From: Bacteroidales bacterium
GTDB taxonomy: Bacteria > Bacteroidota > Bacteroidia > Bacteroidales > FEN-979
DNA: 64,000 nt
Reading direction: 5' to 3'
Assembly (NCBI GenBank): GCA_028706295.1
Contig: JAQWBQ010000010.1
Span: forward strand, 1-64,000
A program made the translations under genes and the position numbers. How positions within the stretch are numbered: the stretch's first letter is position 1; every line of letters begins with the position of its first letter. Positions 5,570-62,020 of this stretch are shown here, piece by piece. The notes below the pieces were generated by a model. That model had not been told where the DNA came from. It saw only the letters and a program-made list of their open reading frames with translations, and did no database searches.

Positions 5570-5646
5570 GGGTATGAGGGTATGAGGGTTTGAGGGAATA
5601 AGGAATTTCCATTCTTTTTATTACTTTTACCTGAAAAATAGATTTT

Positions 5647-13718: not shown

Positions 13719-15161
13719 CTACGGTTCAATCCATATTACGGAGTTTCCGGTGCCATATTCATTGTCTTCCCACAGCTCGTTCGCCGGATCCATGATCCAT
13801 TTACCGTCGACCACGAATTTATAGGAATATTTTCCCGGTTGAAGGTAGATGGAAAAGTCCCAAACACCATTCTTATGATTCATCCGGTATCCGGTTTGAC
13901 TCCACCCGTTAAAATTTCCGGAAAGACAGATTTCGCGGGCACCTGAAAAGCCCTTCAGGGTGAATGTATAATTCGGTTTCACGGCGATGAATGAATTGGT
14001 GAATTCCCCAGCGCCCGTGGTATTGGGATTGGCAGGATCGATCATCCATTTTCCGTCGACGATATATTTATACTCGTAGTTGCCCGGGCCGAGCACATAA
14101 GGAAGTTCCCAGCCATTCCGGATTCGGGTCATGAACAATTCTCCCTGATTCCATCCATTGAAATTCCCGGCAAGGACGATGTTTTGGGCATCCTGATAAC
14201 CATTCAGCCTGAAGATCATGGTATCACCGATACTGAAAAAGGAATTCAGGTTACCCATTCCGTCGGGACGGTTTACTTTACATGCCGGATCATTGATCCA
14301 GTTGCCGTCGACAATGAATTTATAGGCATGGGTCCCTTCCCGGATATAGGCCGATAGCACCCAGGAGCCGCGATAGGGAATCATTTTTAATTCATTTGTC
14401 CTCCAGTTATTAAAACTGCCGGCAACCACCAGCGATTTCGCTGATTGGTAACCCTTTAATATGAACCTGTAATTGTAACAGAAGAACACGGAATTAAAAC
14501 CACCATGGGTATCATTTTCACGGAGTTTGTTATAGGGATCGGAGCTCCATTTCCCGTCGACAATGAATTTGTAGGTGTACTTGCCGGGTGCCAGCCGTAG
14601 GGTAACTGTCCAGCCCGAATCGGTTTTCAGCATCGGGGTCTGCATGGTACTCCAGTTGTTGAATGATCCTGAAAGATAGATGGTCCGTGCATTTTGTCGT
14701 CCCGGAAGAAAAAACCGGATCCGGTTATTCCCGGCCTGTATGACTGTATTAAAAGTAAGGCGGTTTACACCATAGGGCTCTGATTCGCGCAGTGCAGAAG
14801 CCGCGATCCGCAGTTCCTTATCGTCGACCAGGATGATCTCATTACGGTTATAGCGCTGGTCTGTTGCCCCGGTCGATTTTTCCAGATCGAAACGGGTTGC
14901 GTCGACTTTTCGGATGGTCCAGGCGCTCCCTTTGATGACCAGGCTTGTTTTTCCGGAGAATGCTCCGGCAATCAAAGCGCTGTCAAGGTCGAAAATAGTC
15001 GAAACTTCCTTGATCTGAGCCGCATTCCACCGCCTGTCGATGGTAAAGACCATCTTGCCGTCATCGAGGCGGCAAACCTTAGCCGGATCGTACTGAGCCC
15101 GGGCCCCGGGTACGAATACCGCCGTCAGAAACAGGAATATCAACACGTGCAGGTTTCTCAT
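13719..15161 (-). CDS. Secreted protein with four tandem glycogen-binding (CBM48/AMPK1-like E-set) domains
   Basis: Four copies of the pattern (V/I)xLxGxFNxW...PGxYxYKFIVDGKWxxDPxN; signal peptide. Confidence 0.87.
   Translation of the reverse strand: MRNLHVLIFLFLTAVFVPGARAQYDPAKVCRLDDGKMVFTIDRRWNAAQIKEVSTIFDLDSALIAGAFSGKTSLVIKGSAWTIRKVDATRFDLEKSTGATDQRYNRNEIILVDDKELRIAASALRESEPYGVNRLTFNTVIQAGNNRIRFFLPGRQNARTIYLSGSFNNWSTMQTPMLKTDSGWTVTLRLAPGKYTYKFIVDGKWSSDPYNKLRENDTHGGFNSVFFCYNYRFILKGYQSAKSLVVAGSFNNWRTNELKMIPYRGSWVLSAYIREGTHAYKFIVDGNWINDPACKVNRPDGMGNLNSFFSIGDTMIFRLNGYQDAQNIVLAGNFNGWNQGELFMTRIRNGWELPYVLGPGNYEYKYIVDGKWMIDPANPNTTGAGEFTNSFIAVKPNYTFTLKGFSGAREICLSGNFNGWSQTGYRMNHKNGVWDFSIYLQPGKYSYKFVVDGKWIMDPANELWEDNEYGTGNSVIWIEP
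13722..14725 (-). repeat. Four tandem ~250-bp CBM48-like units
   Basis: The shared 8-mer ccgtcgac (VDG codons) lies at 13804, 14053, 14305 and 14554: spacing 249, 252, 249 bp. Confidence 0.88.
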
Positions 15162-16171
15162 CAGGGTTGCTCCTTGTTAAAACAAATTCCGATTTCCCGC
15201 TTTACCAGATTAAAGGAAAACTTCCCTTTTCTGAAAAAATCGAATCCCAGCATGCCGTCAATCCGGGTTCCGTAATAATCCGACATGGAAGTAAGGTCGG
15301 TCAGAATGGTCTCCATCGGACCGATTTTCCGGCTGCCTACCATGAAGTCGTTCAGAATTCCGTAAAGAACCTCTTTTTCTCCGGAACCCACACCACGCAA
15401 GGTCGACCTGCGTGTGATGGTTACTGTGCTCAATACTTTTTTCGGGGCTCCGAGGTTAATTACATTGGATTCAGCGCCTGTGTCAAGACAAAAGTAAAGT
15501 GGCCGTCCTGCAATATTGGCGGTCATGAACATGATATTGCGATGCCGTTCCAGTTTCTGAATCTGATCAAACTTCATCGCCGGCCGGGTAGTCGTCAGGC
15601 GATTTCCATTCCTGTCGGTCCGGTAAATCTGAAGTTCATTTCCTTCAACGTCGAGCACCATTTCGTACTCTTTCAGGATGGCCATCCCAAGAAGTCCGAG
15701 GATCTTTACACCCCTCCTGTTTTCAAGATGACCCAGGGGCGCCAGATCGGTCATGACGCCATTGACTGTGATTTCCGAAAACCGGAGTGTGCTTATTCTG
15801 GTCTTTTCAACCGTCCCCGCGGTTCCGGTGATGCCCCCGGCCTCCCTGGAAACGGTAGTGGAATAATTACGGAAATAGGTCTTGTTCAGAACCAGCTCTT
15901 CGGCGCCCGTATCGAGGATCAGATTCCCTGCGATATTATCAATGATCCCTTCAACCAGAATCAGCCTTCCCGCCCGTTTAAGCGGAATGGTAACACCGAG
16001 AAAAGTTCCCGATGGATCATAAACAGGGCTTCCGGTCACTTTCAACATCCCGATCTTCAGGCAGGATGGCGCTTTCGCTCCGGGGAGGGCGATACTGCAT
16101 GGCTGTAAGCCCAGGTTCAGTGTCAGCAGAACGAACAATACCAAAAATCCAAAACGAAGTTTCCTGACCAT
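15161..16171 (-). CDS. Single-chain retropepsin-like aspartyl protease
   Basis: Two DTG motifs, LILDTGAEELVLN and YFCLDTGAESNVIN; signal peptide; stop and next start overlap as TGATG at 15159-15163. Confidence 0.85.
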   Translation of the reverse strand: MVRKLRFGFLVLFVLLTLNLGLQPCSIALPGAKAPSCLKIGMLKVTGSPVYDPSGTFLGVTIPLKRAGRLILVEGIIDNIAGNLILDTGAEELVLNKTYFRNYSTTVSREAGGITGTAGTVEKTRISTLRFSEITVNGVMTDLAPLGHLENRRGVKILGLLGMAILKEYEMVLDVEGNELQIYRTDRNGNRLTTTRPAMKFDQIQKLERHRNIMFMTANIAGRPLYFCLDTGAESNVINLGAPKKVLSTVTITRRSTLRGVGSGEKEVLYGILNDFMVGSRKIGPMETILTDLTSMSDYYGTRIDGMLGFDFFRKGKFSFNLVKREIGICFNKEQP

Positions 16172-16194: not shown

Positions 16195-19100
16195 TTATTC
16201 CTGGTTCAGAATAATCAGTTTTTTTATGATCCGGGTTTGATCCCATTGCAGGATCAACTGGTACAACCCTGCAGGAGGATTTCCCAACTCAACATTCAGT
16301 TTTGTATCTCCCTGTACTTCAAATTGTTTGGCAACCAGTCGTTTATTACCCAGATTATCAACCAGCCAAATGTCGAGCGAAGCTCCGCGACGGGCTCCTG
16401 CCAATTCAAGGGTAATATTGTTATCGGCGGGATTGGGATAAACCTGACAGCGGATCGCCTCCTGTGTTCCCACCCCGACCGGATAAACCCCGATGACATT
16501 GGAAGGGTCGGAAGCGCATCCGTACGGACTGGCGATCACGAAGTACTGTCCGGGCACATAGGCTACATACTGTTGTGCCGTGGCTCCGGGTATGGGTTGA
16601 TTGTCGCGGTACCATTGGTTCCCCGCAGGTGCGCTCGACACCAGGGTATCGGGTTCAATCACAGTCACGACGGGTGCATCGGGATAGGGATGCACCGAAA
16701 CGTGCAGAACTGGTGAATAGGGTCCGTTACCGCATGTGTTGATCCCGAATACGGAGATATTTCCCGATTGGGCATTTTCGCCGTAACTTACTGTAATGAT
16801 ATTGGTGTTGGCTCCGCCGGTAATGGTCGCGCCGGCCGGTACTGCCCAGTCATAACCCGTGGCTTCCGGGATCGGATTAACCGAATAGACTACTCCTGTA
16901 AGGGGTTTACAAATCAGCGTATCGCCCGCGATCGGTCCGGGTGTTCCGGGTATGGAACGCACCAGGACTGCCAGCGATGAAAGCAGTGAGTTACAGCCGG
17001 CAGGAGTGGTATAGGTTACTGTCACGGTTTGTGCGCCGGGAGCCGTCCAGTAGATCTGAACATTGCGGGTTCCCTGTCCACCGACAATGATCCCACCCGA
17101 AGTGACGGTCCACTGGTAGTTCAGCATACCCTGTTCAGTCAGGTAGGAATAATTTCCCGATGTCATGCATGGATTCGTATTGCCGGTGATTGTGGGAACC
17201 GGTACGGCATTTACTGCCACCGGCAGATTCGTGGGTATGGCAGCGGTACATCCGTGGGCGTCGGTATAATTAACCGAGATCCCTTGAACTCCGGCAATAG
17301 TCCAGTTCACCGTGATCATGTTGGTTCCGGTCCCCGAAGTGATCAGGCCGCCTGCCGTCACACTCCACAGATAATTGATCATGCCCCCTTCGGTCGAATA
17401 AACCACACCCGTGGCGCCCGAGCACAGCGAAGTGGCGCCCAAGATGGTTGGCACCGGTTGGGAGTACACCGTAACGGTGCGTGTGGAAGGAGTGGCAGCC
17501 ATGCATCCGTTGACATTTGTATAATTCACCGTGACCGTCTTTGGTCCGGCAGTAGTCCATTGCACCTGGATCGAATTGCTGCTACTACCCGAAAGGATAG
17601 TCCCTCCGGCTGAAACAGTCCATTGATAACCCGTCATCCCCGCTTCGGTGGTATGGGTGGTGGTACCTCCAAGGCATGACAGACTGCTTCCCGTTATCGT
17701 GGGAACGGGCAACGCATGAACCGTAACGGTTTTCATGGTCGGTTGACCGGCAGAACAACCGTTGCTGTTTGTATAATTCACCGTAACGCTCTGTGTCCCG
17801 GCTGTAATCCAGGTCACTGTGATGATATTGGTCCCCGTACCGGCCGTTATGGATCCACCGGGCGAGATGCTCCACAGGTAATTTACAAATCCGGGATCGG
17901 TGCTGTAGGCAACACCCGTCGTTCCTGCACATGCGGAGGAGATCCCCACGATAACAGGATTCGGTGACGATTGAACGACAACCGACTTCAGGGTAGGTGC
18001 AGCCGCGGTACAACCATTTGCATTGGTATAATTCACGCTGACCCACTGGGATCCGGCCGTGTTCCAGGCAACAGTAATGCTGCTTGTATTGGTGGTGGTT
18101 GAAGTGAGAATGGTTCCCCCCGGGGATACATTCCAGATATAATTGGTCATTCCCGGATCGGTGACGTAAACATTATTGATTGATCCGGCACAAGCCGTGG
18201 CGTTCCCGGTTAGTACCGGCACCGGAAGCGGATTGATGGTGACTCCGAACTGTGTCGGCGCCGATGCCGTGCAACCTGCCGGATTGGTATAATTTACCGA
18301 AACCACCTGTGGGGTCAAGGTGTTCCAGGTTACTGTGATGGTCTGGGTTCCTGCCCCTGAAGTTATGGTTCCACCCGATGTAACGGTCCAGAGGTAATTG
18401 CTCATTCCAGGTTCCGTTGAATATACGTTCCCTGCCGATCCCAGACAGGCTGTGCCGTTTCCGATAATGGAAGGAACCGGCAAAGCGGAAACAGAGATGG
18501 TCTTGAGGGTGACTTGTTGCGGATAACATCCATTGGGGTCCATGTAACTTACTGTAATGGTTTTGGTTCCGGCCGTTGTCCACGACACGACAATGGAGCG
18601 GGTACCGGCTCCCGCGATGATGGTCCCTCCGGTACTGACCGTCCACTGATAAGAATTCATTCCCGGTTCGGTGATAAAAGTCGTAATCCCGTTGACACAG
18701 GCAACAGGATCATTCGTGATGGTCGGTACCGGTAATGGATGAACTGTCACCGTTTTTTGCGAAGGCGTCAGGGCGGTGCATCCGTTGAAGTCGGTGTACA
18801 AAACCGTGATCGACTGGGTTCCGGCCGAAATCCAGTCAACAGTTATGGCATTGGTACCGGCTCCGGATGTGATGATCCCGCCGGGGGTAATGGTCCAGGA
18901 ATATGCGCTCATTCCCGCTTCGCAGTAATAAACCGCCGTGGTTCCGTTGCAGAGTTGCGACAATCCGGTAATCACGGGAACCGGGGCCGCTGCTACAACC
19001 ACGTTTTTAACTGTGGCCGATGCGGCATGACATCCGGCGGGATCGGTATAGTTCACTGAAATCCATTGATTCCCTGGTACCGACCAGGTTACGGTAACTG

Positions 19101-22100
19101 TTGCAGTTCCTGATCCCGAAGTAATGGTTCCTCCCGCAGAGATCGTCCAAAGATAATTCTGCATTCCGGGATCGGTTGTGTAAACTACGCCGGTCGTTTG
19201 TTGGCAGCTCTGAACGGGTCCGTCAATCCAGGGAACCGGAGCGGTTGTAATGGTGACATTTTTGATGGTCGGAGTAGCTGCAGTGCATCCTTTCTGGTTC
19301 ACATAATTTACGTCAACGGTATGAGATCCGGCACTGTACCAGATCACGGTAATTGAATGGGTCCCGGCGCCTGCAGTGATCACACCGGATGTCGAAACAT
19401 TCCAGGCATATGCAGTCATTCCGGTTTCGGTGGTATAATTCACCGGTATTGATGTACAACCCTGAACGGGTCCCGTAATGGTCGGGGTAACCAGTTCGTT
19501 GACGGTGACCGTTTTGGTCGATGGTACCGCTGTACACCCGTTGGAATTGGTATAGGAAACGTAGACTGTCTGCTGACCGGTGGCTGTCCAGTTGATCGTC
19601 ACCGTCGGTGAGTTGACACCCGAAATAATAGTTCCGCCCGGGGTCACGCTCCACAGATAGTTCGACATTCCGGTTTCTGTGCTGTAAGATGCATCAAAGG
19701 TCACACATCCGCTTGATCCACCTGTGATCAGCGGTACAGGCAGCGGATTTACCACAATGGTTTTCACTGTGGCTGATGAGGCTGAACAACCATTGACGTC
19801 GTTGTAATTTACCGTGATGCTTTGGGTTCCCGACGACAGCCAGTTGACTGATATGGCCGAAGTACCCTGCCCTGCTGCGATGACACCGCCGGTTGATACG
19901 GTCCAGATATAATTGCTCATGCCGGCTTCGGTCGTGTAAATGTTTCCCGTGGTGGCCGGACAACCGGTAGCCGGACCTGTAATCACCGGAACCGGAAGTT
20001 CCCGAACGGTCACCGTCAGTGTGGAAGGCTGGGAAGCGGTACAGAGATCGGAATTAACATAGTTGACTTTCACTGTTTTAATCCCAGATGAGGTCCAGGT
20101 AATCTGTACGGAGTCGCTTGTGGCGGTTCCACCGGCTGTTATGATCCCTCCCGGAGAAAGGGTCCAGGAATAGTTGGTTTTGCCGGCTTCCGTGCGATAT
20201 ATATTCCCGGTTGAATTCAGACAAACATCGGAGGGTCCGGTAACCGTAGGAACAGGTAACGGATGAACAGTACAGAAGAAGGTGGCAGGAGTGACCGCGT
20301 TGCATCCTGACAAATTAATATAATTAACTTTTACCCATTGATTTCCTGTGGAACTCCAGGCGACGACAATCGAGCTCGCGTGGCCAGACGGATTGGTGAG
20401 AATGGTGCCACCGGCTGAAACAGTCCATTCATATTGCATCATACCGGTTTGGGTGGTGTAGGTATTCCCGGTGGAGCCAACGCAAGCTGATGCGGTTCCG
20501 GTAAGTGTCGGAACCGGACGTTCATTGACGGATACATCAAAAATCGTCGGTACGACCGATAAACACCCGTGCTGATCGGTGTAACTGACTGTAACGTGCT
20601 GCAGGCCGGAAGCATTCCATGAAACCGTGATGCTGTGTGTTCCTGATCCGCCGGTGATGGTACCTCCTGACGAGACCGACCAGGTATATCCGGTCATCCC
20701 CGGATCGGTGGAATACTCAAACCCTGTTCCGCCGACACAGGCATAGTTTAAACCGGTAATGACGGGAACAGGGGCCGGATAGACCAGAATAGTTTTTGTT
20801 GCCGGAACCGGCGCCGAACAATTGCTGGTATTGGTGTAATTAACCGAAACCGTCCGGTTGCCCGCCTGTGTCCACTTGACAGAGATACTGCTGGTCCCCG
20901 AACCCGAGGTGATAATTCCACCCGGACCGACGGACCACTGATACAGCGCCATACCCGTTTCAGTCGTAAAGACGACGGTTCCATCGATACAAACGGTATC
21001 GGCACCGGTTATTGTAGGTTCAGGCGAAGGATAGACCGTGATTTGTTTTGATCCCGGAACCTGGGTAGGACAGCCGGAAGATCCGTTAATATAAGTGACG
21101 GAGATGGTATGGATGCCGGTAGTATTCCATCTTACGCTGATGGAATTCGTTGAAGCGCCCGAAATGATAGTGCCTCCGGAAGAGAGGGTCCATTCATAAT
21201 TGATCATACCCGACGTGGTAGAATATACCGATATTGCTCCGTTACACATGATTTCCGGACCGGTGATTATAGGAAGGGGTAAGGGCAGGACATTGATCGT
21301 TTTACTGGTTGCGACAGAGGCGTTGCATCCTGCCGGATTTGTATAATTGACCGTAATAGTTTGCGTTCCTGAGCCTGTCCAGTTCACGCTGATGGCATTG
21401 GTCCCCTGACCCGCCGTCAGGACACCTCCGGAAGTTACAGTCCAGGTATAATTCGACATTCCCGGTTCGGTAAAATAAACGACGCCGGCACTGGTCTGAC
21501 AGATCTGGCTTGTCCCGGTTATAGTCGGGGCAGGCGATCCGGATACTGTAACTTGTTTTACTGTCGGATTGGCCTGTGTACAACCGATCGGATCGGTATA
21601 AATCACGCTTACACTCCCGGTTCCGGCACTGTTCCAGGTAATGGTAACGGTGCGTGTATTGGAAGCTCCGACAATGGTTCCGCCTGAGGATACAGACCAG
21701 ATATAATTCTGCATTCCTGCCTCAGTGGTATAATTCTCACTATGACCGGTACAGGACTGCCCTGGTCCTGTAATCGTTGCCACAACATTGTTCTGGACTG
21801 TGACCGATTTGGTCGATGGAATAAGTGGAACACACCCGTTGGTGGTAGTGTAGACCACCGAAACATCCTGTTGACCGGGTGCCGACCATGCAATGGTGGC
21901 TGCAGCAGTGTTTGAACCGGAAATGATGGTTCCACCGGCTGTTACACTCCATTGATATCCGCTCATTCCCGTTGAGGTCTGATAAACTGTCTGGCTGCCA
22001 TTGCACACTGCTGCAGGGCCCAGGATCACGGGAACAGGCGCCGCAAGTACATTTACGGCCCTGGTGGCAGGGGTTGCCGGTTGGCATCCTTTCTGATTGG

Positions 22101-25100
22101 TATAGATTACAGAGATTGTTTTAGTCCCGGGCGTTACCCAGGTCACCGAGATCGATTCGGTTCCCTGACCCGAATCGATGGTTCCGCCCGGGGAAACGGA
22201 CCACAAATATCCGGTCATACCCGATTCCGTAGCATAGCTGTAACCAGGTATGCCCTGGCAAGGGGATGCAGGGCCAGAGATGACAGGTATCGGGAGCGGA
22301 TGAACCGTGACGGTTACCACTGCCGGGGCGGCGGCCAAACATCCCGATTCATTGGCGTAATTGACGGATACCTGCTTTGTTCCCGGGCCGGTCCAGGTAA
22401 CTGTGACGGAATTGCTGGAGGTGGTACCTCCGGAAGTGATGGTTCCTCCCGGTGAAACGATCCAGGTATAATTGCTTTTCCCGCTTTCGGTCATATAAAC
22501 ATTGCCGGCCGCATTCTGACAAACCGAGTCGGGGCCGCTCAATGTCGGCACAGGCCGGTTTGTGACCGTCACTGGAAATACTGCCGGCGTCAGGGCCTGA
22601 CAACCGGCGATACTGGTATAATTTACCCCTACCGATTGCGCACCAAGGGTATTCCATTGAACTGTTATTGTGCTTTCATGGATTGAAGGATTTGTCAGGA
22701 TCACACCGCCGGAAGAGACGGTCCAGCTGTAAGTACCCATCCCGGCCTGAGTATTGTAAGTGTTGTCCACAGAGCCGACGCAACTGGGTGTCGTTCCTGT
22801 GATCACAGGATTTGCCGGTCTTTCATTGACCGAAATATTATACTGGCTGGGTGTTGATGAGGTACATCCATATTGATCCGTGTAACTGACCCGCACATAT
22901 TGCAACCCGGTCGCCGTCCAGTCGACGGTAATGGTCGATGTTCCAAGGCCTGTTGATATCGTCCCTCCGGAAGATACTGACCAATTGTAACCGGTCATTC
23001 CCGGAGCCGTCGAAAACACACTCCCCTGCCCGCCTGAACAGGCAAAGGAAGGACCTGATATGACTGGGACAGGCGGTGCAAGTACCCTGATGATCTTATC
23101 AGCGTAGGAAGGACAAACATAGGTGGTAGTATAACTTACTGTCACCTTGCCGTTGCCTGCCTGGGTCCATTTTACCGAAATACTGCTGGTTCCCTGTCCC
23201 GAGGTGATGACGCCGCCGGTGACAGTCCATTGATACAAGGCCATTCCCGATTCTGTCGAAAAAATCAGGGTGCCATCCAGGCAAATGGTATCGCTTCCGG
23301 TAATGGTAGCCAGGGGCGTCGTATTCACGGTGACGTTTTTCACGGAAGGGATCAGAGTAGGACAACCGAAGGTATTCAGATAACTCACGCTGACGGTCTT
23401 GGCGCCGGAAGTGTTCCAGATCACTGAAATGGAATTGCTTCCTGATCCCGAGACAATAGTTCCACCGGTTGATACCGACCAGATATAATTGGTCATTCCC
23501 GTTTCGGTACTGTAATAAACCGTATTACCGGTACAGGCGACGGAAGATCCGGTGATTACCGGTTGTGGTGCTGGATATACGGTGATGGTCTTGGATGTAG
23601 GTGAAGCTGCATTACATCCGGAACCATTTTTGTAATTCACGGTGATGGTCTGTGTACCCGAACTGATCCAATCCACGCTGATAAAATGGCTCCCCTGCCC
23701 GGAAGTGATGATCCCGCCGGAGGTGATGGTCCAAACATAATCCGTCATCCCCTGTTCTGTAAAATAGATAACACCGGAACTTGAAGGGCAGATGGAAGTG
23801 GTTCCGGTGATGGTTGGTGAAGGAGCCGCGTAAACCTGTACAGTTTTTTGTGTTGGCGTCGTGGTGCTGCAACCGCCCGGATCGCTATACCTTACGGTGA
23901 CATATTGGCTTCCCGCGGAATTCCACCTGACGGTCACAGCATTGGTATTGGCAGATCCGATCAGGGTACCTCCGGATGAAACGGTCCAAACGTACCCCGA
24001 CATTCCGGTTTCGGTACTGTAAACTGCGGTATATCCGGTACAGGATGGATCGGGACCGATGATGGTGGGGATGACCGTTGACTGCACCGTAACGGCTTTT
24101 GAGGCAGGGGTCGATGCGGTACAACCATTCGTATTGGTATAATTGACGGTAATAAATTGATTGCCTGTCGAGGTCCAGGTAACGGAGATGGAGTTTCCTG
24201 TGGCCGCACCGTCGATAGTCCCTCCGCTTACCGACCAGGTGTACCCGTTCATCCCGGCTTCGGTGGTATAAACATTACCTGAAGTACTGACGCATGCCGT
24301 CGCAGCGCCTGAAATGGTGGGTACGGGTAAGGAGTTGACGGTGATCTTAACCGCATTGGTATTGAGGGTTCCGCAGGATCCCGAACTGGTCTGGGCCTGA
24401 CGAAACCAGGTTGAAACACTCATCGATCCGGGTTGATAAGTCATGTTGGTAGCCCCCGCGATCGGAAAGAAATTCAGGTTGTCGGTCGATTGTTCCCACT
24501 GGAACGAGTACGGTGTCAATCCTCCGGTAGGTACCGTTGCTGTAAGCGGCAGAGGTATCTGATTATAACAGACAGATTGGTTCGATACTGCGGTTCCGGC
24601 GACAAACTGCGGATAGATGGTGATGTTATAGGTCGAAACCGGACCGGTGCACCCATTGGCCGAGGGGGTGATGGAAATTACGGCAGAGATCGGGACTGCC
24701 GAACTGTTAGCTGCAGTGAACGAAGGGATGGAAGATCCGGTTCCCGAAGCAGCAAGTCCGATCGCCGTATTGCTGTTCGTCCATGAGAAGGTGGTACCCG
24801 TCACCGGACTGGTCAGTGGGGTTGCGGGGGCGATTACTCCGCTGCAAAAAATCTGATCGGTTACAAGGTTTGCTGTTGGCGTGGGTTTCAGGGTCACGAT
24901 GACGCCGGTCGAACCCGAACAACCGGATATGGCATATTCTGTGACGGTCAGCGTGGCCGTCTGATCCACCGAAGTGTTGTTGGTCCACACCACATTCACG
25001 GGCGAGCCGGTGGATCCGCCGGTGAACGCTCCATACCAGGATCCGGAGACCGGTAGCAATGACCAGGAGAAGGTTGAGCCGGTCGAGCCGGTGACAGAAT

Positions 25101-26043
25101 AGGGTGTGGTTATTCCGGGACAGATCAGCAACGATCCACTGATAGATGGTGTGGGTGAAGCGATTACTGTGATGTTCCGGATGGCGCTGGTCGCGGTGCA
25201 TGATCCATCCTGAACATTTGAATAACTTACGGTAACGGAAGCTGTGCCCGCAACTGTACCTCCCAGCAGTGTTATGGAAGAGGTTCCCTGACCTGTAAAA
25301 GAGATGACATTGGGTGCAGACCCCGTCACCGTCCATACAAAATTGTAATAGGTAATTCCCGACGGAGGTGCCGGTGCGTTCAGAACAGTGGAGGCGCCTG
25401 CACATAACCGATCCGTACCTCCGGTGATGGCGCTTCCGTTGGCCGGAGGTGCCAAAACCGAAACATTTTGAAAAACAGGATTCGAATAACAAACCGTGGA
25501 TCCTTCACCGGGCCTTGAGGCCTGAAGTGCAATCGTATAGGTTCCCGGTGTCGTTGGCCAGGTAACGATTCCCATTGTCCCAGACCAAACCGGGGGCGAC
25601 CCTCCGGCCACCACCCAATCGTAATCTTCACCCGCAACAGGATATGCTACAGAATAGGGATAACTTGACCCGGTACAAACCTGGAAGACCCCTAAGATCG
25701 CCGGTGTGGCTACACCTATCAGGACAGTTTTTGAGGCAGGACCGGAACCGGTTACGACATTTATTGTTCCGGTACCGGGTAACGATCCCCAGTCAACCGT
25801 TATTACGGGAGTATTCCCTATGACCGTCACCGGAGTGGCCCCGGTCGAGGTGATGGTCCAGGAATAGGGAAAAGTTCCGCCAACAGCGGTATAAACATTG
25901 ACACCCGCGTCGACACAAACACTTTCAGGCCCGCTGATGGTGACCTGTGCAGCAACCCGCTGCGATAATCCTACTCCTAAAACCCAGAATGCAATAATCA
26001 TTACCAGGTTATATGCATTCATTTTACCCGTATATGTTTTCAT
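16195..26043 (-). CDS. Giant secreted PKD-like/Ig-like repeat protein (3282 aa) with T9SS type A sorting domain
   Basis: ~30 units of consensus xITGPxxxCxGxxGxxYxTExGMxxYxWTVSxGGTIxSGxGTxxIxVxWxxxGxxxVxVNYTxxxGCxAxxPxxKxVTV; signal peptide; C-terminal VYPNPADNNITLEL...LIILNQE. Confidence 0.93.
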   Translation of the reverse strand: MKTYTGKMNAYNLVMIIAFWVLGVGLSQRVAAQVTISGPESVCVDAGVNVYTAVGGTFPYSWTITSTGATPVTVIGNTPVITVDWGSLPGTGTINVVTGSGPASKTVLIGVATPAILGVFQVCTGSSYPYSVAYPVAGEDYDWVVAGGSPPVWSGTMGIVTWPTTPGTYTIALQASRPGEGSTVCYSNPVFQNVSVLAPPANGSAITGGTDRLCAGASTVLNAPAPPSGITYYNFVWTVTGSAPNVISFTGQGTSSITLLGGTVAGTASVTVSYSNVQDGSCTATSAIRNITVIASPTPSISGSLLICPGITTPYSVTGSTGSTFSWSLLPVSGSWYGAFTGGSTGSPVNVVWTNNTSVDQTATLTVTEYAISGCSGSTGVIVTLKPTPTANLVTDQIFCSGVIAPATPLTSPVTGTTFSWTNSNTAIGLAASGTGSSIPSFTAANSSAVPISAVISITPSANGCTGPVSTYNITIYPQFVAGTAVSNQSVCYNQIPLPLTATVPTGGLTPYSFQWEQSTDNLNFFPIAGATNMTYQPGSMSVSTWFRQAQTSSGSCGTLNTNAVKITVNSLPVPTISGAATACVSTSGNVYTTEAGMNGYTWSVSGGTIDGAATGNSISVTWTSTGNQFITVNYTNTNGCTASTPASKAVTVQSTVIPTIIGPDPSCTGYTAVYSTETGMSGYVWTVSSGGTLIGSANTNAVTVRWNSAGSQYVTVRYSDPGGCSTTTPTQKTVQVYAAPSPTITGTTSICPSSSGVIYFTEQGMTDYVWTITSGGIITSGQGSHFISVDWISSGTQTITVNYKNGSGCNAASPTSKTITVYPAPQPVITGSSVACTGNTVYYSTETGMTNYIWSVSTGGTIVSGSGSNSISVIWNTSGAKTVSVSYLNTFGCPTLIPSVKNVTVNTTPLATITGSDTICLDGTLIFSTESGMALYQWTVTGGVITSGQGTSSISVKWTQAGNGKVTVSYTTTYVCPSYADKIIRVLAPPVPVISGPSFACSGGQGSVFSTAPGMTGYNWSVSSGGTISTGLGTSTITVDWTATGLQYVRVSYTDQYGCTSSTPSQYNISVNERPANPVITGTTPSCVGSVDNTYNTQAGMGTYSWTVSSGGVILTNPSIHESTITVQWNTLGAQSVGVNYTSIAGCQALTPAVFPVTVTNRPVPTLSGPDSVCQNAAGNVYMTESGKSNYTWIVSPGGTITSGGTTSSNSVTVTWTGPGTKQVSVNYANESGCLAAAPAVVTVTVHPLPIPVISGPASPCQGIPGYSYATESGMTGYLWSVSPGGTIDSGQGTESISVTWVTPGTKTISVIYTNQKGCQPATPATRAVNVLAAPVPVILGPAAVCNGSQTVYQTSTGMSGYQWSVTAGGTIISGSNTAAATIAWSAPGQQDVSVVYTTTNGCVPLIPSTKSVTVQNNVVATITGPGQSCTGHSENYTTEAGMQNYIWSVSSGGTIVGASNTRTVTITWNSAGTGSVSVIYTDPIGCTQANPTVKQVTVSGSPAPTITGTSQICQTSAGVVYFTEPGMSNYTWTVTSGGVLTAGQGTNAISVNWTGSGTQTITVNYTNPAGCNASVATSKTINVLPLPLPIITGPEIMCNGAISVYSTTSGMINYEWTLSSGGTIISGASTNSISVRWNTTGIHTISVTYINGSSGCPTQVPGSKQITVYPSPEPTITGADTVCIDGTVVFTTETGMALYQWSVGPGGIITSGSGTSSISVKWTQAGNRTVSVNYTNTSNCSAPVPATKTILVYPAPVPVITGLNYACVGGTGFEYSTDPGMTGYTWSVSSGGTITGGSGTHSITVSWNASGLQHVTVSYTDQHGCLSVVPTIFDVSVNERPVPTLTGTASACVGSTGNTYTTQTGMMQYEWTVSAGGTILTNPSGHASSIVVAWSSTGNQWVKVNYINLSGCNAVTPATFFCTVHPLPVPTVTGPSDVCLNSTGNIYRTEAGKTNYSWTLSPGGIITAGGTATSDSVQITWTSSGIKTVKVNYVNSDLCTASQPSTLTVTVRELPVPVITGPATGCPATTGNIYTTEAGMSNYIWTVSTGGVIAAGQGTSAISVNWLSSGTQSITVNYNDVNGCSASSATVKTIVVNPLPVPLITGGSSGCVTFDASYSTETGMSNYLWSVTPGGTIISGVNSPTVTINWTATGQQTVYVSYTNSNGCTAVPSTKTVTVNELVTPTITGPVQGCTSIPVNYTTETGMTAYAWNVSTSGVITAGAGTHSITVIWYSAGSHTVDVNYVNQKGCTAATPTIKNVTITTAPVPWIDGPVQSCQQTTGVVYTTDPGMQNYLWTISAGGTITSGSGTATVTVTWSVPGNQWISVNYTDPAGCHAASATVKNVVVAAAPVPVITGLSQLCNGTTAVYYCEAGMSAYSWTITPGGIITSGAGTNAITVDWISAGTQSITVLYTDFNGCTALTPSQKTVTVHPLPVPTITNDPVACVNGITTFITEPGMNSYQWTVSTGGTIIAGAGTRSIVVSWTTAGTKTITVSYMDPNGCYPQQVTLKTISVSALPVPSIIGNGTACLGSAGNVYSTEPGMSNYLWTVTSGGTITSGAGTQTITVTWNTLTPQVVSVNYTNPAGCTASAPTQFGVTINPLPVPVLTGNATACAGSINNVYVTDPGMTNYIWNVSPGGTILTSTTTNTSSITVAWNTAGSQWVSVNYTNANGCTAAAPTLKSVVVQSSPNPVIVGISSACAGTTGVAYSTDPGFVNYLWSISPGGSITAGTGTNIITVTWITAGTQSVTVNYTNSNGCSAGQPTMKTVTVHALPVPTITGSSLSCLGGTTTHTTEAGMTGYQWTVSAGGTILSGSSSNSIQVQWTTAGPKTVTVNYTNVNGCMAATPSTRTVTVYSQPVPTILGATSLCSGATGVVYSTEGGMINYLWSVTAGGLITSGTGTNMITVNWTIAGVQGISVNYTDAHGCTAAIPTNLPVAVNAVPVPTITGNTNPCMTSGNYSYLTEQGMLNYQWTVTSGGIIVGGQGTRNVQIYWTAPGAQTVTVTYTTPAGCNSLLSSLAVLVRSIPGTPGPIAGDTLICKPLTGVVYSVNPIPEATGYDWAVPAGATITGGANTNIITVSYGENAQSGNISVFGINTCGNGPYSPVLHVSVHPYPDAPVVTVIEPDTLVSSAPAGNQWYRDNQPIPGATAQQYVAYVPGQYFVIASPYGCASDPSNVIGVYPVGVGTQEAIRCQVYPNPADNNITLELAGARRGASLDIWLVDNLGNKRLVAKQFEVQGDTKLNVELGNPPAGLYQLILQWDQTRIIKKLIILNQE
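17200..24075 (-). repeat. Higher-order repeat: three tandem copies of a 9-unit block (~2.29 kb each)
   Basis: Approximate copy borders 24075-21784, 21783-19490, 19489-17200; diagnostic TILT unit at ~22690, ~20392 and ~18100, spacing ~2298 and ~2292 bp. Confidence 0.85.
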
Positions 26044-26321: not shown

Positions 26322-29300
26322 TCATTGCTTCACAATCCTGAATGTCTGTACCTGGTCCCCGCTTATGATCCTGAGAATATAGATCCCGGTCGGGCGACCC
26401 TCTATCGATACTTTATGGGTACCGCCTTCCCGAAGTTCACCTGTGAAGATCCGCTCGCCCTTCATGGAGTAAATATCAATCCGTGAATCAATGTTTACGC
26501 GCTCTCCGGGACATTCAACATTGAAAATACCAGTGTTAGGATTTGGATAAACTTTAAATCCGCTCACCGGGATTTCAGTTACCGGCGTCTCGATTGAAGT
26601 CGGAACGGTAACAATTGATGGCATGTTCATTCCACAATACATGCCATTTGTCGTAATGTATCCATGCAGGTATCCACCGGGTTGTACGCTTGTACCCGGT
26701 AACATCAGAATGTTCTGGCCGGCAATGAAAGTAGCAGATCCACCGGACTGAACAATAAAATGGGTACCGCTGCCGGCGACCACAATGGTTTGGACGGCAT
26801 CGTAACACGCGCTTTGCCCGGCGCCGATCGTGATATTCTGAACCATCACAAGGGAGGGTGGTAATACCTTGACCGGAAACACCGTAGGTGAAACAGAATG
26901 ACACCCCGAAGCATTGATGACATCAAGATTGACAGTCTGGTTGCCGGTAGTATTCCAGCTCACCTGGATCGAATAGGTTCCTGCGCCTCCCACGATGGTG
27001 CCACCTGCAGAGACGGACCATTGATAACCGATCATTCCGGCATCCGTTGTATAGGTGGTGGTGGTACCAACCGTGGTTTCTGAAAGCCCTGAGATTACGG
27101 GAACAGGCGTCGGGAGAACCGTGATCGTCTTGGCAGTCGGAAATTCTGCGCGACAACCTCCCGGCGTTGTATAATTGACGGTCATCCCTGAGAAACCGGG
27201 AGTTTGCCATACAACAGTGACAGCATAAGTGCCCTGTCCGCCTGTGATGACACCCCCGGGTAAAACAGTCCACTGATAATTGGTCATCCCGGGTTCTGTA
27301 ACATAGACTTCTACCGAAGAAGCGCATGGCAATGAATTTCCCGTTATGGAAGGTACCGGAGGAGAAAGCACCGATATCGGCTTGATCGTGGGAACCGGAT
27401 TGGAACATCCCTGAGCATCTATGTAGTTCACTTCCATTGACTGGGGTCCGGTGGTATTCCACTGTACAAAAACCGAATAGCTATGTTCGCCTGAAAGGAT
27501 GGTTCCACCCGGGGAGACCGACCAATTGTACTGACTCATACCGGTTTCGGTAGTGTAATTGAAAACGCCTGCCGTACAAGGCTGCGACGGACCCTGGATG
27601 GAAGGCACCGGGTAAGGTGATACCCATACATTTTTCACGGTTTGGCTGGAGGTCTGGCAACCCAGTGTATTGGTGTAATTCACGGTAAGGGTTTGTGTTC
27701 CCGGGGTGATCCACGATACGGTAATGCTACGGGTTCCATTACCTGCTGTGATTATTCCTCCGGGAGAAACGACCCAGGCATAGTTTGACATACCGGGATC
27801 GGTAAAGTAAACAACTCCGGTCGAACCTTCACAAACCGTTGATGGTCCTGTGATTACGGGCGCCGGTAATGGATTCACGGTAACCGGAAAGACTACGGGC
27901 GTAAGCGCCTGGCAACCGGTTTGCGGATTGGCGTAATTCACCGTCACGGTTCTGAACCCGGATTGCGTCCACCGGACCAGGATCACGGCAGTACCGATCC
28001 CGGAGGTAATGATGCCGCCGCTTCCGACACTCCAGTTGTAAAGCGACATGCCTGTTTCGGTCGAATAGGCCACGGTCTGGTTCAGGCACACCTGCCAGGG
28101 TCCCGAAATGGTCGGAACCACCGGTTGATTAACATATACAGTTTTAACCGAAGGAGTGGCTGGCACACACCCATGCTGATCGATGTACGAAACGGTCACC
28201 GTCTGAACTCCCGCGTTATTCCAGGTAACATTAATGGAACCTGTATGTTGGCCACTGGTGATCGTCCCGCCGGCTGAAACAGTCCAGGTATATCCCGTCA
28301 TACCGGGATCGGTGTTATAAATCATTCCTCCGACACCGGGACAAACGTTAACCGGACCGGTCAGAAGCGGTACCGGCAATGGATATACCACCATAGCAAC
28401 GGGGCCTGATGTTGCAGGATTTCCGGAGAGACAGGGAGAAGGCAGGCTCGAAGTAAGCACACAGGTCACCACATCGTTTACCGCCGGAACGTAACTGAAA
28501 ACAGGATTGTTACTTCCTGCGTTCACGCCGTTGACTTTCCATTGATACACCGGATTCTGGCCGCCATTGACAGGATAAGCCGTAAAGGTAACGGAAGTTC
28601 CCGCACAGACCGGATTTACCGATGGAATTACAGTGACGCGGATAGGCGGATAGGCGGAACACGTATCTTTCAGACATCTTACCGATAATCCCAATGATTT
28701 ATTGTTTGGATTCCGTCCCACAGCGTTCAAACTGCTGGTCAGGTAACGGGTCCAGGCGTTGGTTGAACTATTCTGGGTTGATGAGTAGTTATATCCGAAT
28801 TCTTTCAGGGATCCGAACATTCCGTCGGCGAAACGCAATCCACCGCCTAAGCAGGTGAATCCGCTGGTATTGACGGCCCCGGTATTGGGCGATAACCAAT
28901 GCGATGTGCCGACCTCTTTCATTTTCCCGCCGGCAACACTTTCTCCGCTCAGATAGGTAGTCAGTACCGACCATTCGTCGTCGGCAGGGATATGCCATCC
29001 CTGAGGACATATCCCCTGAACTCCGGGAATGATAAGATATTGCATCATTTCGTTCCATTGGTACAATCCACCGTAAACGGAACAGTTTGATTCCAGATCC
29101 TGATAACAGTATTTTTCAAGTATACCATTTTGCGATTGTTCCTGATTTCCGTTGATGCGGGTTCCGGCATCCAGATTCTCTTTGAACCAGCATTGGGTCC
29201 CGATTTGTACCGTATGATAGGTCTTACCCATATAGGTCACGGTAGGAATACCCGGACAGGACACCCCGTAAAGGATCCCCATGATAATCGTATTCGAAGT

Positions 29301-32300
29301 TACCTGAGGATTGATCACGCAAAAATGGTTTGAGGTAACCGTGCAAACAACCGAATCCCCTTCCGAAGGGACATAGGTGAAGGTCGGACTGTTGGTTCCG
29401 GCAATGATTCCATTCACCCGCCATTGGTAAACAGGATTGGTGCCCCCGTTCACCGTAGATGCGGTAAATGTTACAGCACTTCCGGTCAACACCGGATTTT
29501 GGGATACCACGATCGACGCCCCGACCACAACGGGCTGGGTTATGTTGACCGTTTTCAAGGGGCTGGCGGCGCTGCAACCGTAACCGTTTGTCACGCTAAC
29601 CCGGATGGTTCCTGTGGTTGGCCCGGGACCTCCCCAGTAAAGATTACAGGTTGACTGTGAGCCGCCGGAAAGGATTTGTGTTCCGGCAGGACCCGAAACC
29701 GTCCAGGCATACGATGACATGCCGGGTTCCGTAAAATATATATGCCCGCCGGTATTCTGACATACCAGATCGGTTGGATCAGAAAAACTTGTGATCGACG
29801 GTGTGGGCGCCGGGTGTACTGCCACCATAAGTGGTGTCGCAACCGATGCCTGACAGCCGTTGCTGTTCAGATAATTTACCGTGATAATCGGGCTCCCTGA
29901 ATTTAACCATGTAATGGTAACTGTTCGGGTTCCCTGGCCCGAGGTAATAACTCCTTCAGAAGTCACAGTCCAGAAATAAGAGGTCATTCCCGGTTCGGTA
30001 AAATAAACATTTCCTGTCGTATTCTGACATCCTGTCGAGGCGCCGGTAATAACCGGAACAGGTAATGCGTTGACGGTCACAGTGTAAGTAGTAGCTTTTG
30101 CAGCAGTGCATCCCTCAGGGGTCGTATAATTAACTCCAACTTGTTTTATGCCCGTCGAATTCCAGGTTACTGTAACAAAATCATTTACCGGCGTACCTCC
30201 TGCTGTTATGGTGCCATCGGGCGATACTGTCCAATTGTATCCGGTTTGTCCGGCCAGCGTGGTGAAGGTATTGCCCGTAGCCCCGTTACAGGTCGATGCA
30301 GGTCCGGTAAGGACAGGGACAGGTAACGGATTCACGGTCACCGAAAAGGTCCCCGGGAGTGCGGCGAAACATCCGGCAGTGTTCTGGTACGTTACCATTA
30401 CGGACTGTGGTCCGGAGGTGTGCCACAATACGTCGATGGTACTGGAATGGTCAGAGGGAGCTGTAATGATGGTGCCTCCGTTTGAAACGGTCCACTGATA
30501 GAGGGTCATTCCCTGCTGGGTGCTGTATGTTGCCTGTGTTCCGATGCAGACTGCCGGCGGGCCGGCGATGACCGGATCAGCAGGTCGGGCATTGATGGCA
30601 AGATTGAACTGTGATGGCGTTTGGGCAGTGCATCCGTGTTGATCGGTATAGACAACATAAACCGATTGTAGTCCGGCAGTGTTCCAAAGCACGGTTACGC
30701 TGTTGGTTCCCGATCCTGCTGATATCACACCATCCGGAGTGGCGGTCCAGGTATACCCGGACATTCCCGCGGCAGTGTAAAAATCGGCTCCCGGACCTCC
30801 GGTACAACTGTACTGCGGTCCACTGATCACCGGTACCGGCGGGGCATACACTGTAATATTCTTTACCGTGGGCGTCACCGCCTGACATCCTCCGGCCGGA
30901 TTGACATAATTCACCGAAACAGTACCCGGGCCCGATTGAATCCATTTTACCGAGATCATGTTGGTTCCCTGTCCCGAGGTGATCAAACCACCGGTACTTA
31001 CGCTCCAGGTATACATCGCCATTCCGGGATCCGTCGAAAAAACAAGGGTACCATCCAGGCATATCGTATCTGCTCCGGTAATTACCGGAAGCGGTGACTG
31101 GTTGACCTGGACCGCTTTAATCCCGGGGACCAGGGTCGGACAACCCTGGGCGTTGAGATAGGCGACAGATATGTTAAAGGTACCGATCGAGGACCAGCGT
31201 ATTCCAATCGTGTTGGTGCCTGATCCGGAAACAATAGTTCCTCCTGCATCCAGATTCCAGGTATAATTTGACATTCCTGATGCGGTGGTGTAGTAGGTAG
31301 TGGTTCCCGTACAAACCGGGGTCTGACCTGAAATTAGTGGTGTGGCGGCAGGTTGTACCGTAACCGGCAGAAGGGTAGGCTGGGGAGCCGTACACCCCGC
31401 CAGATTGCTGTAATTCACCGTCACACTTTGTGTCCCGGCCGTCGTCCAGTTTACAGAAATGACACTGGTACCGCCGCCGCCGGTGATCGTTCCGCCCGTC
31501 ACACTCCAGGTATATCCTGCCATGCCGGATTCGGTAAAATAGACCACTCCGGCGCTTCCCTGGCAAATCGATACCAAACCTGTAATAGTTGGCGCCGGCG
31601 AAGCATTGACGGTAACCGGTTTAACGGTTGGTATGGTCACCGTGCATCCCAGGGCATCGTTGTAAATCACTCCCACATTCCTGTTACCGGCCGTGTTCCA
31701 CAACACCGTGATCTGGCCGGAACCCTGACCCGATACGATAGTTCCGCCTCCCAGAGGCAAGGTCCACACGTAATTGAGCATTCCGCTTTCGGTCAAATAG
31801 GTGCATGGAATCGATGTACACGCAGGATCAGGTCCGGTGATCGAAGGCACAATGGTGCTTTGTACCGAGACGGTTTTTGTTCCGGGCGTCGCAGCAACAC
31901 AATTATTCAGGTCGGTATAGCTAACCGATACGGTCTGTATCCCGGCAGTATTCCAGGTGATATTGACAGAACTGTTATTAACAGGACCTGCGATCACACC
32001 TCCGGTCACCGACCAGTTATAACCACTCATGCCCTGCTGGGTCGAATAGATATTGTTCGTGGAGTTGATACACGCCGCCCCTGCTCCGGTAATTGCAGGC
32101 ACAGGCAACGGATGGATACTTATTTTCACCGCGTTGGTGTAAACCGTTCCGCATCCATCAGATGATATTTGCTTTTGCCGGTACCAGGTTGTTACCGTCA
32201 GGGAACCGGGTTGATAGGTCATCCCGGTTGCCCCGGTAATATCTTCGAAACTGATGTTGTCAGATGAACGCTGCCAGAGATAACTGTAAAAGGATGTTCC

Positions 32301-35300
32301 GCCCGTCGGAGGAGTTGCCGTAAGCGCAACCGGCGCGGTGTTGTAGCAAACCGACTGGCTCGCGGTAGCCGCTCCGGCCAATATCTGCGGATAGACCATG
32401 TAGCTGAACAAGATGGGCTGCCCCGTACAGGTCAATCCCGTCGCCGGTGTGATGTAAGGCGTCACCGTGATGGTTGCTGTTGCCGCAATGGTACCCGTGT
32501 TGATGGCTGTGAACGACGGGATATTGCCGTTGCCGCTCCCAGCCAGCCCGATCGTCGGATTGCTGTTGGTCCATGAATAGGTCGTTCCGGTCCCGGTAAA
32601 GATTACCGCCTGTGTCATTCCGCCATGGCATACAGTCTGGTTGCCCACCGGATTGACTATCGGGGTTGGATAGACGGTAAATTCAAAGATTTTTGATGAT
32701 CCGGTACAAATCAGCCCGGGCGCAGGCGAAATTGAAGGTGTCACCGTAATTGTAGCAGTCTGTGGTGAAGTCCCGGTATTTGTCGCTGTAAAGGTCCCAA
32801 TATTACCGGTACCGCTTCCCGGAATTCCGATGCTTTGATTGCTGTTGGTCCATGTGAACAAAGTACCGGTAACATCACCGTTGAAGGGCGTCGGTGTTGT
32901 TATAGAACCATTGCAAGCCGATTGATTTTGGATATCCGATACATTCGGACTTGGATTAATAGTAAGGGTAAAAGTCATGGTCGATCCTGAACACGTAACT
33001 CCACTGAAAACTGAAACCGGCGTTACGCTTATAGTCGCCGTCAGGGTTGCACTTCCCATATTGGTTGCCGTAAAGGTTCCGATGTTTCCCGTGCCGCTTG
33101 CCGGTAAACCGATCGAAGGCTGGTTGTTGGTCCAACTGTAGGATGTTCCGGTGCCGCTGAATGTTACTGCTGCCGTCAGCGATCCGTTGCACACCATCTG
33201 GTTCTCCACTGCATTGACAACGGGCAACTGGTAAACCGTCGTGGTTAAAGTTCCCGGGGTCAAAGCATCACATCCGGAGATGTTGGTATAGTTTACCCCA
33301 ACGGTCTGTTCTCCCGGTGTATTCCACTGAACCTGGATCGTGCTGGCATGGTTCGAAGGGTTGGTCAGGATCGTTCCTCCGGAAGAGACACTCCAGCTGT
33401 AGGTCGTCATTCCTGCAATGGTGCTGTATACGACAACTGATCCTGCACACGCACCGGCCGGACCACTGATCACCGGGTTTACCGGCCGGGCATTTATGGT
33501 GATGTTATAAGAGGATGGCGTTGATGAACTACATCCGTGTAAATCGGTGTAGCCCACGAAAATTGTCTGTAATCCCGCGGCGCTCCAGCTTGCCGTTACC
33601 GTGTTCGTCCCGGTGGTTGGCGATACGGTGCCCCCTGTCGAAACACTCCATACATAATTTGTCATTCCCGGTTCTGTCGAAAATGTATTTCCGCTTCCCA
33701 GGGCACATCCAAAGTTTGGTCCGCTGATCATCGGAACCGGCAGCGAATAAACGGTTATATTCTTTACCGTGGCGCTCACTGCCTGGCATCCTCCGGCCGG
33801 ATTCGTGTAATTTACCGTAACTGCCTTGGCTCCGGCTTGTGTCCATTTCACGGTGATACTGCTGGTTCCGGCTCCCGAGGTAATGATTCCCCCTGCTCCG
33901 ACTGTCCAGACGTACAACGCCATCCCGGGTTCCGTCGTGTAAGTAACCGTTCCGTTAAGGCACACGGTATCGGCCCCCGAAATCATGGGTTGCGGAGATT
34001 GGTTTATAGTCACTCCGAAGACGCCGGGTATAAGCGTCGGACAACCCAGAGCGTTCAGATAAGTTACGGTGACCGTATGGGTTCCGGTCGACGCCCACGT
34101 GACCCCGATGGAATAGGTTCCGGCCCCCGAACTGATCGTTCCGCCCGAAGTTAAACTCCAGTTATAAAGGGTCATCCCTGGTTGCGTAGTGTAATAGGTT
34201 GTGGTCCCGGTACACGCTGTGGTGGGTCCGGCAATGGTCGGCGTTGCGGCCGACTGCACAGTAACCCGGGTAAAGGTTGCAGCAGGTGCCTGACATCCTA
34301 CCGAATTGGTATAGTTTACTGTGACGGTCTGTGTTCCGGCTATATTCCAGGTAACGGAAATCGCACTGGTGTTGCCTCCTCCTGTGATTGTTCCCCCTGT
34401 AACACTCCAGGTGTATCCGCTCATCCCCTCCTCTGTAAAATAAACAACCCCGGCACTTCCCTGACAGATCGGCGTTGTGCCCCTGATGGTCGGGGCCGGA
34501 GAGGTATTTACCGTGACCGGTATCACCGTCGGAGTAAGGGTTGTACACCCGAGTGCATCGTTATAGATCACGCTCACACTCCGGTTTCCCGGCGTGCTCC
34601 AGATTACGTTTATCCGGCTTGTTCCCTGTCCGGAAAAAATGGTACCGCCTCCCAGCGGCAAAGCCCAGGTATAATTGAGCATGCCGCTCTCGGTCGTGTA
34701 TTCCGATTGCCCCAATGTACACGCCGGATTGGGACCATCGATGGTTGGTATGATCGTATTTTGTACAGTCACCGTTTTGGTGGCAGGGGTTAGTGCATTA
34801 CATCCGTCAGGGGTGGTATAATTCAAACTCACCTGTTGTGATCCCAGCGTATTCCAGGTCACCGTGACGGTGGTGCTTGTGGATGTTCCTCCTGCCGTAA
34901 TGATTCCTCCGACAACGCCCCATTGATAATTGGTCATGCCGCCGGCCGTGCTGTAAACGTTGTTGGTAGCGTTCATGCAGGCAGCAGCCGGACCTTCGAT
35001 GCCAATGACCGGCAGCGCGCTTACCGATATCTTTGCCTGATTGGTGTATACCGATCCGCAACCACTCGAAGAAGATTGTCTGACCCGGTACCACCGGTTA
35101 GCAGTCACCGGCCCCGGCTGATACGTCATGGATGATGCGCCGGCGATCGCGGTGAATTCAGTCCCATTAGTTGATATTTCCCAATCGTACAGGTACGGCG
35201 GAACCCCGCCGCTCAACGCGGTCGTGGTCAGCAATTCCGGCTCCAACCCGTAACAAACCGTCTGGCTTGCCGTTAACGATCCGGCCTTCAGCTGCGGCGT

Positions 35301-61956: not shown

Positions 61957-62020
61957 TGTTTTGGGTTTTGGGATTACAAAATATTTACCGGCCCGGTCAC
62001 GTGTCAGCAAATCCCCCGGG

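Follow-up and report, generated by a model that had tools for sequence, protein, structure and literature searches.

An ordered nine-domain block repeated within two neighbouring giant PKD_6 genes of a Bacteroidales bacterium

We analyzed a stretch of 64,000 nucleotides from a Bacteroidales genome (GenBank assembly GCA_028706295.1, contig JAQWBQ010000010.1; hereafter the window), in which two adjacent giant genes, designated gene A and gene B, encode long arrays of PKD_6 domains. The domains of gene A fall into nine subtypes (T1-T9) that follow one another in a fixed order and then start again, and gene B holds the same subtypes in the same order. Overall, we put at about 0.8 the probability that genes A and B encode paralogous PKD-like rods of predicted immunoglobulin (Ig) fold, in which an ancestral T1-T9 block was copied separately within each gene.

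Nine-unit period of gene A

Gene A matched the curated PKD_6 profile (PF19408) over 29 stretches with 840.7 bits (cut-off 25), and its C terminus scored above the cut-offs of both Por_Secre_tail (PF18962, 36.9 bits) and TIGR04183 (25.0 bits), the type A sorting domain of the type IX secretion system (T9SS). A signal-peptide-like segment was read by eye at the N terminus. We cut the units by an iterated hidden Markov model (HMM), which delimited 29 contiguous units (a01-a29) of 81-87 amino acids each, running from 24321 to 16942 of the window, in line with the unit size of about 85 residues proposed in an initial annotation of this DNA. The same model found another unit at the C terminus and four weaker ones at the N terminus. 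Tandem Repeats Finder, which is limited to periods of up to 500, reported no repeat in gene A, the copies being too diverged for it.

The initial annotation had suggested that unit subtypes recur with a nine-unit period, and that the idea would fall if adjacent units proved to be the closest relatives. Mean amino acid identity between units was 0.509 at offset 9 and 0.435-0.465 at offsets 1-8 and 10-17, with values of about 0.445 close to offset 9. The offset-9 value was never reached in 20,000 shuffles of unit order (p<=5e-5), and offset 9 was the only short offset with a clear excess, the identity at offset 1 being that of the null (p=0.51, unit-order permutation). Independent pairwise global alignments gave the same picture: the nearest relative lay at +/-9 for 14 of the 29 units (1.4 expected, p=0.0002), and at +/-1 for a single unit (2.0 expected, p=0.80). 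A higher-order repeat, in which unit n is nearer to unit n+k than to unit n+1, is therefore present at k=9 in blocks 1 and 2 only, and the offset and nearest-neighbour tests rule out a single-unit (offset-1) model for these two blocks. The spacings of 2298 and 2292 bp reported earlier were exact, since the T7 loop motifs lie 766 and 764 amino acids apart; the motif had been misquoted, however, as its first copy reads VILTNPSIHESTI and not TILTNPS. Units of the form GPxxxCT, which had been placed at ~24073, ~21783 and ~19490 and taken to open each block, do occur and start at 24069, 21780 and 19485, but they are not the block openers. The natural start of the block is T1 (24321), one unit upstream of the earlier boundary at 24073, because A1 and both gene B blocks start at T1 after a lead module.

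Three tandem copies had been claimed, and the first two are clear: the in-order match of A1 with A2 showed an excess of 0.105 (z=5.4). The third is much fainter. Its matches with A1 and with A2 showed an excess of ~0.024 (z=2.0, p ~0.03), and the A2-A3 match lost significance once the first unit was removed. Register 0 was nevertheless the best fit of A3 to the nine subtype profiles (p=0.006), and the pattern of its unit lengths also fits (p=0.03-0.04). A single unit of A3, a19, groups with its own subtype in the unit tree (support 84.7/96), and for none of a20-a29 does the nearest neighbour lie nine units away. Gene A thus contains two firm block copies and probably an eroded third one that is only weakly in register. 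The pairs a22-a26 and a24-a28 hinted at a four-unit period within a19-a29, but the signal did not reach significance (p=0.15).

Shared order in gene B and history of the blocks

The block had been described as a property of the 3282-residue gene, but it is not private to it. Gene B scored 547.9 bits with PKD_6 (cut-off 25) and 35.2 and 38.6 bits with the sorting-domain profiles PF18962 and TIGR04183. Leave-one-out subtype profiles built across both genes assigned 29 of the 34 units of A1, A2, B1 and B2 correctly. When each typed unit was compared with the 54 other units, the nearest relative was of the same subtype in 31 of 34 cases; for a 32nd, a10, it was a19, the T1 position of A3. The unit tree unites T2, T4, T5, T6, T7 and T8 across the two genes, and a lead module (a PKD_5-like domain and an 'SQSVCYN' domain) stands ahead of A1 and of each gene B block. 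The subtypes are also recognizable by diagnostic residues, namely VKWTQ in T5, DxxGC together with a linker rich in Asn in T6, ILTxPSxH in T7, and, for T8, GK or GQ where GM otherwise stands. A pair of cysteines, at positions 10 and 70 in a07 numbering, occurs in every typed unit and may link into a disulfide within each domain.

The concatenated T1-T7 tree, which is unrooted, was ((A1,A2),(B1,B2)), with 99.9 support in the Shimodaira-Hasegawa-like approximate likelihood ratio test and a bootstrap of 100. The approximately unbiased (AU) test rejected an A1-B1 pairing (p=0.0002) and an A1-B2 pairing (p=0.006), and A3, when added, was placed beside A2 (94.7/94). Because the blocks group within genes, there was probably one ancestral nine-domain block, judging from these sequences, followed by separate amplification in A and B. 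The block duplications are ancient, since synonymous sites are saturated: identity between A1 and A2 at fourfold-degenerate sites was 0.278, against 0.264 by chance.

Both genes are present in a sister species (G006) and are colinear unit for unit. The gene A orthologue has 96.8% amino acid identity, the same 3282 residues and no gaps, with a nonsynonymous divergence (dN) of 0.015, a synonymous divergence (dS) of 0.134 and a dN/dS of 0.11; there too, 14 of 29 units find their nearest relative nine positions away. The gene B orthologue differs by two one-residue gaps. No gain, loss or homogenization of units since this split (dS 0.13) was seen in genes A and B, and the colinearity therefore speaks against both recent turnover and an assembly artefact.

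On the basis of these data, we propose a putative history. In the ancestral gene, a lead module would have stood ahead of nine PKD_6 domains (T1-T9) that had already diverged. Once A and B had separated, the whole block would have been copied internally in each gene, in gene A as a direct tandem of T1-T9 (with A1 and A2 clear and A3 faster-evolving or eroded) and in gene B as a lead module plus T1-T7 or T1-T9. Similar domains may have allowed the copying through unequal recombination or replication slippage, and with units of whole codons the reading frame would have stayed intact. The copies would then have diverged to 57% identity under purifying selection, after which the order froze. Growth by duplication of a whole ~2.29-kb segment followed by divergence, as first suggested, holds well for A1 and A2 and is likely, though blurred by erosion, for A3.

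Several points weigh against this history. A3 is weak, and with no root on the block tree, block duplication following the gene split is the most economical reading rather than a proven one. T6-T7 leave that tree undecided (AU 0.51 vs 0.58), and some A1-B1 exchange is possible. The saturated DNA leaves no breakpoints to reveal the recombination mechanism. Finally, the role as a surface rod is drawn solely from homology and a predicted model.

Table 1. Features of genes A and B, with positions in the window
Feature	Positions	Strand	Description and basis
Gene A	16195..26043	minus	3282-aa giant protein, PKD_6 array and C-terminal T9SS sorting domain; open reading frame, profile matches
Gene A N-terminal region	24889..25941	minus	four diverged PKD_6-like units; unit HMM, 25-36 bits each
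Gene A lead module	24322..24888	minus	PKD_5-like domain and 'SNQSVCYN' domain; direct sequence comparison, counterpart precedes each gene B block
Block A1	22033..24321	minus	units a01-a09 = T1-T9; HMM-cut units, T1-T9 profiles, tree
Block A2	19735..22032	minus	units a10-a18 = T1-T9; 57% aa identity to A1 over T1-T7, in-order match z=5.4
Block A3	17452..19734	minus	units a19-a27, probably a third copy, eroded, with a19 (T1) alone clear; register p=0.006, length pattern p=0.03-0.04
Units a28-a29	16942..17451	minus	beyond the three blocks; subtype profiles
Gene A Por_Secre_tail	16210..16443	minus	T9SS C-terminal sorting domain; PF18962, residues 3201-3278, TIGR04183 above cut-off
Gene B	26322..37505	minus	3727-aa paralogue: PKD_6, PKD_5-like, Fib_succ_major (FISUMP), Por_Secre_tail
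Gene B units b02-b04	36390..37157	minus	partial block, order T3-T4-T5; best type profiles, 16-33 bits margin
Gene B lead module of B1	35013..36389	minus	includes two-domain 184-aa duplication (71% aa); sequence comparison
Block B1	33219..35012	minus	units b06-b12 = T1-T7; leave-one-out profiles, 7/7 correct
Gene B lead module of B2	32100..33218	minus	three PKD_5-like domains and 'SQSVCYN' domain; sequence comparison
Block B2	29787..32099	minus	units b13-b21 = T1-T9; leave-one-out 8/9 correct (T9 scored as T3)
Gene B Fib_succ_major (FISUMP)	28668..29210	minus	PF09603, residues 2766-2946, 115.7 bits

Alternative histories and block growth in the family

Selection rather than descent could hold the nine-domain register, with each position contacting a partner or sister chain at set intervals, as has been suggested for the C-zone of titin. 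Position-specific residues kept across four blocks despite saturated DNA, purifying selection on the array and a copy number that does not vary between the two species all accord with such a functional super-repeat. However, the gene persists although A3 has lost its register, the gene B blocks are interrupted by other domains, most homologous arrays have no such register, and simple descent together with fold constraint explains the conservation. We therefore regard this explanation as doubtful. Its more specific form, in which the two proteins build stiff, possibly co-assembled filaments resembling grappling hooks and each domain position has its own contact, is a long shot; if true, it would be a bacterial counterpart of the titin super-repeat, with the register selected while synonymous sites were randomized.

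It is also rather improbable that the block was duplicated before A and B separated and that later gene conversion in each gene produced the within-gene similarity. T6-T7 slightly favour an A1-B1 grouping (for T7, A1-B1 0.65 vs A1-A2 0.57 and B1-B2 0.56). In contrast, T1-T5 strongly support grouping within genes (AU p<=0.005 for the alternatives), and no homogenization is seen since the split from the sister species.

An ordinary array, grown by single-domain duplications and showing period 9 by chance or composition, is what most PKD_6 arrays of the family look like: among the other large arrays, offset 1 was strongest in most, so that single-unit growth dominates. The a20-a29 stretch, with no period-9 neighbours, also has this character, and only there does such an explanation stand. 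For blocks 1 and 2, permutations of unit order reject it (p<=2e-4); the subtype order is moreover repeated in gene B and the sister species, which leaves it very little room as an account of the whole. Although draft genomes can collapse or duplicate repeats, an assembly artefact in this metagenome bin is refuted by copies ~59% identical in DNA, far too different for misassembly, and by the ungapped 3282-residue gene in another species' assembly.

Growth by blocks is seen elsewhere in the family. An array in another genus (G021:C282) contains a 770-residue block of one ~170-residue domain and seven PKD_6 units in about four copies, with 75% amino acid identity at one period and tracts of 94-100% in the middle copies. 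It is a higher-order repeat like that of gene A, but its subtypes and period are different and it is far younger; judged from its sequence, this eight-domain block is of independent origin. Its gene (G021:C282:1-9210) has a repeat period of 2310 bp and runs off the contig end. Ordered-pair counts for this array (L046, p=0.023) and another (L051, p=0.020) were marginal and uncorrected over ~33 arrays, and were not used as evidence. Period-3 arrays occur in G008 and G020. In gene B, a PKD_5-like tandem duplication of 184 residues (552 bp, 74% nucleotide identity) spans 35286-36389, about residues 373-740, and is found in both species without homogenization. The G021 block, the period-3 arrays and the gene B pair appear to be the same mode of growth at younger stages.

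The growth of gene A had also been likened to that of satellite higher-order repeats, and this likeness is loose. Satellite repeats homogenize, whereas the blocks of gene A are 57% identical in amino acids, saturated at synonymous sites, and free of homogenization or copy-number turnover since the split from the sister species. The super-repeats of titin and nebulin are, by analogy, the closer counterparts. Titin grew block-wise as a chain of Ig-like domains (PMC10665226). Its A-band C-zone and D-zone super-repeats of Ig and fibronectin type III domains resemble genes A and B in repeating ordered blocks of Ig-like domains, and, as in gene A, domains at equivalent positions are nearest relatives and the effect is weak in terminal copies. 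Unlike gene A, titin is eukaryotic and intracellular and has 11 copies of a long C-zone block from two domain families; gene A is bacterial, with two clear copies of nine PKD_6 domains that are common to a neighbouring paralogue. Nebulin shows a seven-domain expansion, and multi-domain duplication was reported to be commoner than single-domain duplication (Bjorklund et al. 2006, PMC1553488). Such duplications leave the same autocorrelation signature of block size as in gene A; the repeats in that survey are mainly eukaryotic, whereas in the bacterial family most of the arrays that we examined grew by single units and a nine-unit block is exceptional. The Olduvai triplets of NBPF (PMC9584774, PMC10475015) are likewise a protein-coding higher-order repeat formed by multi-unit block amplification, but they are young, with ~50 triplet copies in humans, while gene A is ancient, saturated at synonymous sites and has two or three copies. 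Multi-domain block duplication is thus already known, and the bacterial case is notable for its age and for being shared by two neighbouring genes. A literature search on PKD, type IX secretion and giant repeats found no paper. One nine-domain block can be traced through two paralogues, a pair of orthologues and an eroding copy, and with the young eight-domain block of a related genus these would represent stages of different age of one process within one bacterial family. The block-duplication model for Ig-like rods, including the relatives of grappling hooks, could accordingly be tested outside vertebrate muscle.

Likely role, distribution and genomic neighbourhood

Genes A and B likely encode an exported extracellular rod or spacer bearing adhesion or binding functions, as sequence homology and structural modelling suggest; the T9SS sorting domain points to export, and the rod would most likely hold such a function out from the cell surface. 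An AlphaFold2 model of T6-T7-T8 (111-row alignment) consists of all-beta modules, with a predicted local distance difference test score (pLDDT) of 95.3. In a Foldseek search against PDB, fragments of the GhpA shaft alone gave a good three-domain superposition with this model (template-modelling score TMq 0.51-0.68), the best at TM 0.64-0.68, a root-mean-square deviation of ~4.8 A and 20-24% identity; the other matches listed reached a TMq of 0.36 or less. By sequence, GhpA was the one protein of known structure significantly related to gene A (E=6.6e-57; gene B, E=8.1e-32), a relationship at the level of the domain family, and other arrays of the family would probably match GhpA as well. GhpA forms heptameric T9SS-exported grappling hooks (PMC11205867, PMC13319060). 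Like gene A, GhpA of Aureispira sp. CCB-QB1 (PDB 9FLP and related) is a giant T9SS-exported chain of Ig-like domains; unlike it, genes A and B carry no evidence of a heptamer, a hook or predation, and the structural matches have only 19-24% identity. The SprB family was absent from the Pfam and NCBIfam matches of both proteins, in general scans with no follow-up aimed at SprB.

Ordered T1-T9 runs were found only in the present genome and the sister species, the other long arrays that we read being unordered. Outside these two species, no match near the A/B block level came up among the 43 family genomes searched. Two arrays first read as orthologues (G029:C98 and G035:C75, 46-48% identity over ~600 residues) lack the T1-T9 order. 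On one flank of the pair, 13719-16171 holds a gene for an aspartyl protease of two domains (Asp_protease_2/gag-asp) and a gene for a protein with four AMPK1_CBM/CBM48-like repeats; these two genes are conserved in at least seven other genus members. In the stretch read around them in seven other members there was no PKD_6 gene, some of the contigs ending nearby. An M48 peptidase gene (37835-38647) adjoins gene B and, among 19 genus members, occurs only in the present species (G000) and the sister species; it is possibly part of the same lineage-restricted stretch. The gene A/B pair therefore has a narrow distribution, although the repeats inside it are ancient. Other species may have lost it, or it may have arrived in finished form.

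A contig matching that of the sister species, SACF01000004.1 (L070), was deposited as 'Alphaproteobacteria bacterium isolate INTA.CYC.164'. It carries T9SS-type PKD_6 giant genes and its genome was placed in the present genus, so the record name looks wrong. The window contains a third PKD_6/T9SS gene at 58480-62040 (1186 residues, four strong PKD_6 domains), the best unit of which has the top score among all 117 PKD_6 matches in the genome. Within 5.6 kb at the start of the window, four octanucleotide tandem repeats lie between genes or at gene ends (120-145, 2543-2571, 2626-2700 and 5566-5596), with the units GAGTGATT, ATGGTGCC, ATTCAATC and ATGAGGGT, and a 58-bp unit is present in three copies at 182-354.

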